Made by a program: the position numbers and the translations under genes. A stretch of 47,798 bases of DNA from Anaerolineae bacterium (GTDB lineage: Bacteria; Chloroflexota; Anaerolineae; Anaerolineales; UBA11858), in contig JACNJM010000253.1 in NCBI GenBank assembly GCA_014382605.1, positions 1,385 to 49,182 of the forward strand, written 5' to 3'. Numbering within the stretch: position 1 is the first letter of the stretch; each line of letters begins with the position of its first letter. The notes under the pieces were generated by a model. The model worked only from the letters and a program-made list of their open reading frames with translations. It made no database searches and was not told the DNA's origin. This document shows, piece after piece, positions 9,386 to 11,353 of this stretch.

Positions 9386-9628
9386 ATGGACACAAATCAG
9401 CACCAAACCCAAATTCTCATCGAGCGTCTGGCGCGGCTTTCTGCCGATTCGCTGTGGGCGCGGCGCGCCAGCGGGGTGCGCGCCGCGCTGGATAAGGCCC
9501 TCAGCCGCCCAGAGATAAGTGACCCGCAATATCTGGAACGTCTCATCCAGGCTGGTTTTGAACTGCTCGAAAAAGCCGCGTGTGAATTGCCTTACGATAA
9601 CATTGACAAATCCGGCGGCATTGACTAG
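9386..9628 (+). CDS. Small hypothetical protein (about 80 aa)
   Basis: ORF restarted at MDTNQHQTQILIERLARLSADSLWARRASGVRAALDKAL; amphipathic helical look, in the gap before the promoter at 9603. Confidence 0.5.
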   Translation: MDTNQHQTQILIERLARLSADSLWARRASGVRAALDKALSRPEISDPQYLERLIQAGFELLEKAACELPYDNIDKSGGID

Positions 9629-9631
9629 AAT
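9603..9631 (+). promoter_or_regulatory. Consensus-like promoter for the trans-sulfuration leader
   Basis: TTGACA (9603-9608), 17-nt spacer, TAGAAT (9626-9631). Confidence 0.7.
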
Positions 9632-9641
9632 TCGCCCCAAT

Positions 9642-9749
9642 ATGTTTACTACCACCTTGATCTCCCTCGGCATTTTTGCCACAATGATGAGCGTGTTGAT
9701 GCCCCGCTCGCGGGCTTGGGTGGTCGCGTCTCGCAGACGCAGGCATTAG
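9642..9749 (+). CDS. Putative leader peptide MFTTTLISLGIFATMMSVLMPRSRAWVVASRRRRH (35 aa)
   Basis: ATG lies about 2-4 nt from the predicted TSS (near-leaderless); internal Met codons 15, 16, 20; followed by a terminator hairpin before the structural gene. Confidence 0.5.
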   Translation: MFTTTLISLGIFATMMSVLMPRSRAWVVASRRRRH

Positions 9750-9774
9750 AACGTACATATCTTTTGCACAATAG

Positions 9775-9797
9775 GCCGCCCAATCGGGCGGCTTTTT
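9775..9797 (+). terminator. Intrinsic terminator, candidate attenuator
   Basis: gccgccc-aatc-gggcggc-ttttt. Confidence 0.8.
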
Positions 9798-9821: not shown

Positions 9822-11060
9822 ATGGCTTACCCTACCATATCTACCCAGGCACCCCCCATCGAACCCAAATCAAATGGTTTCGGCCCCTCTACCCAATCTG
9901 TGCATGGGGGGCGGAGCGCCAACCCCTATAACGCGGTAACCGAACCCATCATACAGACAGCCACCTACACCTTCGCGGATACTGCCGCTGTGTGTGCCTA
10001 TAAAGACGCCTATCTCATGGGCGATGCTGGCGGTGTGATCGAATATGGACGTTATGGCAACCCTACCGTATCCGCGGCTGAGGCGCGCCTGGCGGCTCTC
10101 GAAAGCGCTGACGATGCCCTGCTCTATGCTTCGGGCATGGCGGCGATTACCAGCGTGGTGCTGTCGATGTTGCCGACCGGCTCGCATATTGTCCTCACCG
10201 ACGACTGTTATCGTCGCACGCGTGAATTTGCGCTGACGTTTCTCAAACGCCTGGGGATTGGTTGCACGATTGTGCCGATGGGTGATTATCAGGCTCTCGA
10301 AGATGCCATCTGCCCGGAGACACGCCTGCTGATCTCCGAGTCGCCAACCAACCCCTATTTGCGGGTGCTGGATATGGAACGTTTTGTGGAAGTCGCTCGC
10401 CGTCGTAAAGTCAGGACAATGGTGGATGCCACCTTTGCCACGCCGGTCAATATCCAGCCCCTGGCGTGGGGCGTGGACCTGGTGGTGCATTCTGCCTCTA
10501 AATATCTTGCCGGGCATAATGATTTGCTCGCCGGGGTGGTGGCTGGAGAGGCAGGGCTGATTGCCTCGCTGCGCGGTCCGCTGGGCGTGTTGGGTGGAAT
10601 TATTGATCCCAACAACGCCAATTTGGTACTGCGCGGCGTCAAAACCCTGGCCTTGCGTGTCGAGCAGCAAAACCAGAGCGGGATGAAGGTTGCCCAATTC
10701 TTGGAAGCGCATCCCAAAATCGAGCAGGTTTGGTATCCGGGGCTATCCTCTCACCCCGATCACAGAGTCGCCATCCAACAGATGAAAGGTTTCGGAGGGG
10801 TGGTATCCTTTACCGTGCGCGGCGGTTTGGAAGCAACCTCCCGCTTCATTGACAATCTGCAACTCTCGCAGATTGCGACCTCATTGGGCGGCACGGAATC
10901 GCTCGTCATTCAACCGGCACTGATGACCTATTATGAGTTCTCACCGGAAGAGCGCGCTGGAATGGGCATCCGAGATAATCTGGTGCGTCTGGCGCTCGGC
11001 ATTGAGGATGCACAAGACCTGATCACTGATTTGGCTCAGGCCTTGGCAATGGCGCCGTGA
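9822..11060 (+). CDS. PLP-dependent trans-sulfuration enzyme (cystathionine gamma-synthase/lyase family)
   Basis: STQSVHGG, RYGNPTVSAAEARLAALE, SASKYLAGHNDLLAGVV (PLP Lys), GGTESLVIQPALMT. Confidence 0.92.
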   Translation: MAYPTISTQAPPIEPKSNGFGPSTQSVHGGRSANPYNAVTEPIIQTATYTFADTAAVCAYKDAYLMGDAGGVIEYGRYGNPTVSAAEARLAALESADDALLYASGMAAITSVVLSMLPTGSHIVLTDDCYRRTREFALTFLKRLGIGCTIVPMGDYQALEDAICPETRLLISESPTNPYLRVLDMERFVEVARRRKVRTMVDATFATPVNIQPLAWGVDLVVHSASKYLAGHNDLLAGVVAGEAGLIASLRGPLGVLGGIIDPNNANLVLRGVKTLALRVEQQNQSGMKVAQFLEAHPKIEQVWYPGLSSHPDHRVAIQQMKGFGGVVSFTVRGGLEATSRFIDNLQLSQIATSLGGTESLVIQPALMTYYEFSPEERAGMGIRDNLVRLALGIEDAQDLITDLAQALAMAP

Positions 11061-11095: not shown

Positions 11096-11124
11096 TTGAC
11101 AGTTCTTGTGCCCTTGGGTACAAT
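11096..11124 (+). promoter_or_regulatory. Consensus sigma70-type promoter of the ilv operon
   Basis: TTGACA (11096-11101), 17-nt spacer, TACAAT (11119-11124). Confidence 0.8.
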
Positions 11125-11167
11125 CCCGCCCAATATTGAGACAGCCGGAACGCCCGGCAAAAAAATT

Positions 11168-11281
11168 ATGCCAAATTTATTTGTTTTGTTTATCTTTATC
11201 CTGATTAGCCTTTTGGTTCTTATCCTTGGGATTACGAACCCCGTTTCCGTTTGGGCAGTTAGGAAAGTGACGAGCAGATAA
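11168..11281 (+). CDS. Putative ilv leader peptide (37 aa) MPNLFVLFIFILISLLVLILGITNPVSVWAVRKVTSR
   Basis: 18 of 37 residues are Leu/Ile/Val; between promoter and terminator upstream of ilvD. Confidence 0.7.
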   Translation: MPNLFVLFIFILISLLVLILGITNPVSVWAVRKVTSR

Positions 11282-11309
11282 CAGCAAAACACATTCCAAG
11301 AGTTAGAGC

Positions 11310-11339
11310 AAAGGGCTGCCCACACGGGCAGCCCTTTTT
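11310..11339 (+). terminator. Intrinsic terminator, ilv attenuator
   Basis: aaagggctgccc-acac-gggcagcccttttt, perfect stem, 15 nt before the ilvD ATG. Confidence 0.88.
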
Positions 11340-11353
11340 GATTAGGTGAAATT

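Follow-up and report, generated by a model that had tools for sequence, protein, structure and literature searches.

What kind of control acts on the gene at 9822-11060 of the window (the whole 47,798-nucleotide stretch of Anaerolineae DNA analysed here), and which signal does its leader read? Bacterial methionine genes are controlled by SAM riboswitches, T-boxes or repressors, and we know of no established leader-peptide attenuator for methionine. A first-pass annotation had proposed a ribosome-mediated attenuator in front of this gene that senses Met, or else Thr or Arg. The features of the region, all on the + strand, are the following.

9603-9631, +: sigma-70-like promoter TTGACA-N17-TAGAAT (TTGACA 9603-9608, TAGAAT 9626-9631), matching 11 of 12 consensus bases
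9642-9749, +: leader ORF of 35 codons, MFTTTLISLGIFATMMSVLMPRSRAWVVASRRRRH, beginning 10 nt after the -10 box
9651-9657, +: predicted region 1, ACCACCU, taken from the full-leader fold; the segment is weakly conserved
9684-9701, +: control codons Met15 (9684-9686), Met16 (9687-9689) and Met20 (9699-9701)
9716-9725, +: region 2, the antiterminator strand UUGGGUGGUC, within codons 25-28 (the W-V-V stretch)
9726-9740, +: small hairpin GCGUCU-CGC-AGACGC at the end of the ORF, compatible with the antiterminator
9774-9783, +: region 3, GGCCGCCCAA, the 5′ arm of the terminator plus two loop bases, common to terminator and antiterminator
9775-9797, +: intrinsic terminator GCCGCCC-AAUC-GGGCGGC-UUUUU (regions 3:4), 24 nt after the leader stop
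9822-11060, +: cystathionine-gamma-synthase-family PLP enzyme (PF01053), 412 aa

The promoter, the ORF, Met codons 15, 16 and 20, the terminator and the hairpin were all recovered at the positions given in the first-pass annotation. From the position of the promoter, transcription is predicted to start about 3-4 nt 5′ of the leader ATG. Region 2 starts 14 nt past the end of Met20, the last Met codon. The Met codons therefore lie upstream of the antiterminator strand, as had been claimed, but at a distance of about 14-30 nt and not 20-35 nt. The proposed pairing of the W-V-V stretch with the terminator arm also held, but its length grew from 8 to 10 pairs with the loop bases included (UUGGGUGGUC 9716-9725 with GGCCGCCCAA 9774-9783; 2 pairs are G-U). 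The antiterminator fold (9714-9785) reached -28.5 kcal/mol (z -3.9), which none of 200 shuffles equalled, and the terminator RNA (9762-9797) folded at -17.7 kcal/mol (z -3.5 against shuffles). When the full leader is left untranslated, region 1 (9651-9657) is predicted to pair with GGGUGGU (9718-9724). With this predicted region 1 added to regions 2-4, the leader has the four-segment layout of a textbook attenuator. Taken alone, neither the promoter (4 promoter-like sites found versus 2.3 expected) nor the terminator (3 terminator-like sites versus 3.4 expected) is remarkable. Directly 5′ of the leader lies a small ORF (9386-9628) without Pfam or NCBIfam match, the end of which is overlapped by the leader promoter; a similar ORF is present in G017 and G019.

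The gene product is predicted to be CGS/OAH-sulfhydrylase/MGL-like. Because every NCBIfam equivalog model listed for it scores below its cut-off, which leaves the subfamily unassigned, it was placed only as a Cys/Met-metabolism PLP enzyme. Its control by SAM riboswitches in relatives suggests a biosynthetic role. The metX model TIGR01392 was undetected in the host genome (G000) and present in 2 of 41 relatives. Downstream of the enzyme gene, an ilvD leader is found at 11096-11353 (promoter 11096-11124, ORF 11169-11281, MPNLFVLFIFILISLLVLILGITNPVSVWAVRKVTSR). This leader is also kept downstream of the enzyme orthologue in G019 (L004), with a GGGCTGCCC-type hairpin.

To follow the leader across genomes, we collected orthologues with E below 1e-130, which yielded 46 genes among 201 Anaerolineales genomes; every count rests on related genomes, a large share of which are incomplete MAGs, and on fixed search thresholds. 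A Met-rich leader ORF with terminator was found upstream of 25 of the 46 orthologues and a SAM-I riboswitch upstream of 15, while none of the 46 carries both. Four orthologues (L062, L063, L066 and L073) have neither, and two loci are cut off upstream (L026 and L065). In the other orders of the class, a SAM-I riboswitch precedes 22 of the 24 scanned orthologues and a Met leader precedes none of them (0/24). SAM-type control of the enzyme gene is therefore widespread in the class. The Met-leader loci span six families of Anaerolineales (f1, f6, f8, f12, f13 and f14), where the putative Met leader stands in the place of the riboswitch. In the protein tree, Met leaders occur in more than one group, with 4 label changes by parsimony, but the starred branches are compatible with a single origin of the Met leaders. 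In the host genome a single SAM-I riboswitch was found, upstream of metK (L076, G000:C15:5420-5600). At three f8 loci (L008, L009 and L010) the enzyme gene is preceded by a tandem of two leader-terminator units rich in Met and Thr, possibly an attenuator sensing Met and Thr.

A search for clusters of Met codons across the order found a leader before the methionyl-tRNA synthetase gene, metG, in G038 (L090, 1459-1620). Among the loci read, this pattern gave a well-spaced ORF and U tract only at the enzyme-gene leaders, at the metG leader L090 and at L093. L093 was rejected as a Met leader, being the antisense frame of an Asp-rich repeat protein. Applied to the whole class, the Met-cluster DNA pattern revealed no convincing leader outside Anaerolineales among the loci read, and a looser pattern applied to the host genome gave an excess of chance matches and no further leader among the loci read. 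Upstream of 71 metG genes we then counted 22 leaders with a terminator and spacing of the matching kind, a number that stands after a hand check in which nine loci were dropped because their hairpins were weak or poorly positioned, as was an extra ORF at L150. L090 brings the metG leaders to 23. The 22 include that of the host itself (L177; MKTRTYFPHMQVAMPMMRVMMCRASKQAAVQVENLC; G000:C278, metG at 2826), which precedes the matched metG start by about 307 nt. For many metG genes in Anaerolineales no leader could be recognised. That leaders of one design precede both a biosynthetic gene and the gene for the cognate synthetase suggests that charged tRNA-Met is what is sensed.

We studied the pairing in 50 leader units, 28 from the enzyme gene and 22 from metG. 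Each of the 28 enzyme-gene units has a strong hairpin and a U tract; the hairpin starts 17-42 nt after the stop codon, so that an intrinsic terminator lies between ORF and gene, as in an attenuator. The pairing of regions 2 and 3 was stronger than in dinucleotide shuffles, with a mean z of -2.28 at the enzyme gene (n=28) and -2.82 at metG (n=22), although the leaders are related and the units are therefore not independent draws. Some units are individually weak (p of at least 0.05 in 9 of the 28 enzyme-gene units). In 17 representatives, the cognate pairing averaged -21.3 kcal/mol versus -14.3 kcal/mol after exchange of partners, and the cognate sum was reached in 0 of 20,000 permutations of leader and terminator partners. 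Region 2 begins a median of 13.5 nt (enzyme gene) or 14 nt (metG) past the last Met codon. Given the footprint of the ribosome, the front edge of one stalled at the last Met would fall at about the start of region 2. With folding begun 12 nt downstream of the last Met, the 2:3 antiterminator formed in 27/28 and 21/22 units; with folding begun 12 nt downstream of the stop codon, all 50 formed the terminator. By computation, an antiterminator that excludes the terminator is thus exposed by a stall at the control codons. Since region 2 was located by the best duplex, this fold result is partly built in, and the proper controls for the 2:3 pairing are the shuffles and permutations.

Close relatives of the host, among them G019 and G013, carry the same arrangement. 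Orthologues with 91, 88, 76 and 71% protein identity all keep the promoter, a near-leaderless Met-rich ORF, a GGGUGGUC-type region 2 and the terminator, and the small hairpin is retained in G013 and present in a shortened form in G012. Read by eye from the alignment, several sequence changes preserve the pairings. At the Ala codon that precedes Trp, a T to C change in the third position accompanies an A to G change in the loop, with the antiterminator kept; region 2 changes from GGGUGGUC to GGGCGGUC where the terminator arm is ACCGCCC; and the outermost G-C of the terminator stem is replaced by A-U in G012. The parts, their conservation and spacing, the match between antiterminator and terminator and the alternation with SAM-I riboswitches are all shown by the sequences.

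We consider it highly probable that the leader is a ribosome-mediated transcription attenuator with methionine control codons. This proposal, already made in the first-pass annotation, gained support from the Met leaders at 25 orthologues, the cognate pairing, the spacing of region 2 and the metG leaders. RNA polymerase would start a few bases 5′ of the leader ATG, with a ribosome trailing behind it. With ample Met-tRNA, the ribosome would cross the Met codons and region 2 and reach the stop codon, upon which the 3:4 terminator would fold and transcription would end before the enzyme gene. If Met-tRNA is scarce, the ribosome would stall on the Met codons with its front edge just upstream of region 2, which would then be free to pair with the 5′ arm and loop of the terminator, and the polymerase would continue into the gene. 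From this arrangement we infer that the leader is translated, that ribosomes stall on it and that the response has this direction. As in known attenuators, the genes downstream make or charge the amino acid concerned, here the PF01053 enzyme, which is SAM-riboswitch-controlled in relatives, and metG.

The clustered Met could also act as residues and not as codons, if SAM or methionine caused the leader peptide to arrest the ribosome. Such arrest is known from TnaC, which responds to tryptophan, and from the MTO1 region of plant cystathionine gamma-synthase. In plant CGS1, SAM induces arrest at MTO1 within the coding region of the enzyme itself and leads to mRNA decay, a translation-coupled feedback on a cystathionine gamma-synthase gene that resembles the present case in this respect. 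Three species of the genus indeed have an almost identical C-terminal PRSRAWVVASRRRRH, and two more retain part of it, as might be expected of an arrest peptide. This conservation overlaps region 2 and the small hairpin, however, and is explained by RNA pairing because it coincides with them. Across the families the Met clusters recur at a matching place in the homologous leaders, at 25 orthologous loci in all six families, which answers the doubt whether the leader ORF is conserved, whereas the rest of the peptide diverges. Because the peptides have little in common between families beyond the Met cluster, whereas the TnaC/MTO1 type has a conserved nascent-peptide sequence upstream of the stall site, we regard peptide arrest as very unlikely.

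A second question is whether the codons read by the attenuator are those of Met. TTT occurs close to the start of the window peptide and RRRR close to its end, and the Thr content of the f8 leaders is as high as their Met content, so that sensing of Thr, Arg or Leu, or of a general slowdown of translation, could be considered. To compare leaders without bias, ORFs were chosen by their distance to the terminator, blind to Met. At least 3 internal Met were then found in 17 of 19 leader loci, while the same pick at riboswitch loci gave none with as many (0/18), and Met made up 14% of residues in the leader ORFs versus 1.4% in the riboswitch-controlled controls. The window leader has 3 internal Met and its homologues a median of 6. 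The short ORF thus contains clustered codons of the amino acid under regulation, as attenuators do. Met is the common enriched residue and lies directly upstream of region 2; the Arg run, in contrast, lies past region 2, where a stall would fail to free region 2. Control acts on the genes of a Met/Cys enzyme and of MetRS. Since Met alone is common to all leaders and lies at the right distance, sensing of another amino acid is highly improbable. The Met enrichment and the like leaders before metG favour Met over Thr or Arg in the earlier choice.

As orthologues carry SAM-I riboswitches at the corresponding position, the leader might instead hide a metabolite-binding riboswitch or a T-box. However, when scanned against Rfam, neither the window leader nor any of the 24 other Met-leader loci matched SAM-I (RF00162) or any other family at gathering score, and the window has no match to the Rfam T-box model above the gathering score of that model. 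The stretch from the -10 box to the terminator has room for little but the ORF, and a hidden riboswitch or T-box is extremely improbable. Lastly, the terminator might serve only to end transcripts from upstream, such as that of the 9386-9628 gene, and the ORF might be a product of chance, as the promoter overlap with the 3′ end of that gene could suggest. This has a negligible probability. In G013 and G012, which have a different upstream neighbour, the enzyme gene is still preceded by promoter, Met ORF, antiterminator and terminator, which disposes of the reservation raised earlier that the terminator belongs to the 9386-9628 gene, and a matching layout is also found before metG.

The leaders, read as Met attenuators, resemble the classical ones (trpL, hisL, thrL, the ilvGMEDA leader and the pheL/pheS leader) in the short ORF with clustered control codons, in the mutually exclusive antiterminator and terminator and in the control of both biosynthetic and aminoacyl-tRNA synthetase genes. 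Unlike in those, the control codon is that of Met, which is also the start codon, the ORF is near-leaderless, region 2 lies inside the ORF and the host belongs to the Chloroflexota. The SAM-I riboswitch (RF00162) occupies the corresponding position before enzyme orthologues, but it binds SAM directly, needs no ribosome and is absent at all Met-leader loci. The nearest precedent is metL of Streptomyces lividans, proposed as a leaderless Met leader peptide before metNIQ; it differs in having only two internal Met codons, next to Cys and Thr codons, in the lack of a clear terminator, in controlling an importer and in being reported from one species (PMC8079986). The uORFC-8-2 motif before cysS of Rhodobacterales is likewise a proposed ribosome-mediated attenuator with tandem control codons at an aminoacyl-tRNA synthetase gene, but it senses Cys and occurs in Alphaproteobacteria (PMC8632094). 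A 2005 survey of Actinobacteria reports that methionine operons lack conserved upstream RNA structures (PMC1262725), and the searched passages of a terminator-based survey of 302 genomes do not mention a Met leader peptide (PMC2965389). In agreement with the first-pass annotation, which knew of no well-established Met leader, we found no established Met attenuator in the open-licence literature, a scope that might miss a subscription paper, with Streptomyces metNIQ as the one weak candidate. Ribosome-mediated attenuation is a classical mechanism, here with a new amino acid and in a new lineage.

The near-leaderless start proposed for the window leader is shared by its homologues. The distance from the -10 box to the ATG is 6-10 nt in all 14 leaders where a TTGAC-type promoter was found, and near-leaderless initiation is therefore a common trait; leaders of f14 and some of f13 have seemingly longer 5′ ends. 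A shortage of Met should also slow initiation at the leader AUG, complicating the simple picture. The behaviour of the untranslated leader matters for this reason, because lack of Met also hampers initiation. In the family of the window, regions 2 and 3 of the untranslated leader can pair before the terminator is complete (9.6 expected pairs), whereas in f12 upstream sequence mostly sequesters region 2. As untranslated nascent RNA in the window's family would form the antiterminator first, both failures might open the gene, and the leader would read Met twice, through initiation at its near-leaderless AUG and through elongation across the Met cluster. We offer this double reading as a speculative and rather unlikely extension. 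If it were true, the tandem Met/Thr leaders of f8 would integrate Met with the competing threonine branch.

A widespread and internally consistent set of leaders replaces the SAM riboswitch at one gene and covers MetRS as well, which makes the rarity of Met attenuators testable. These leaders also pose the question of how a sensor works if its amino acid also starts the translation of the sensor, and here that question can be tested.
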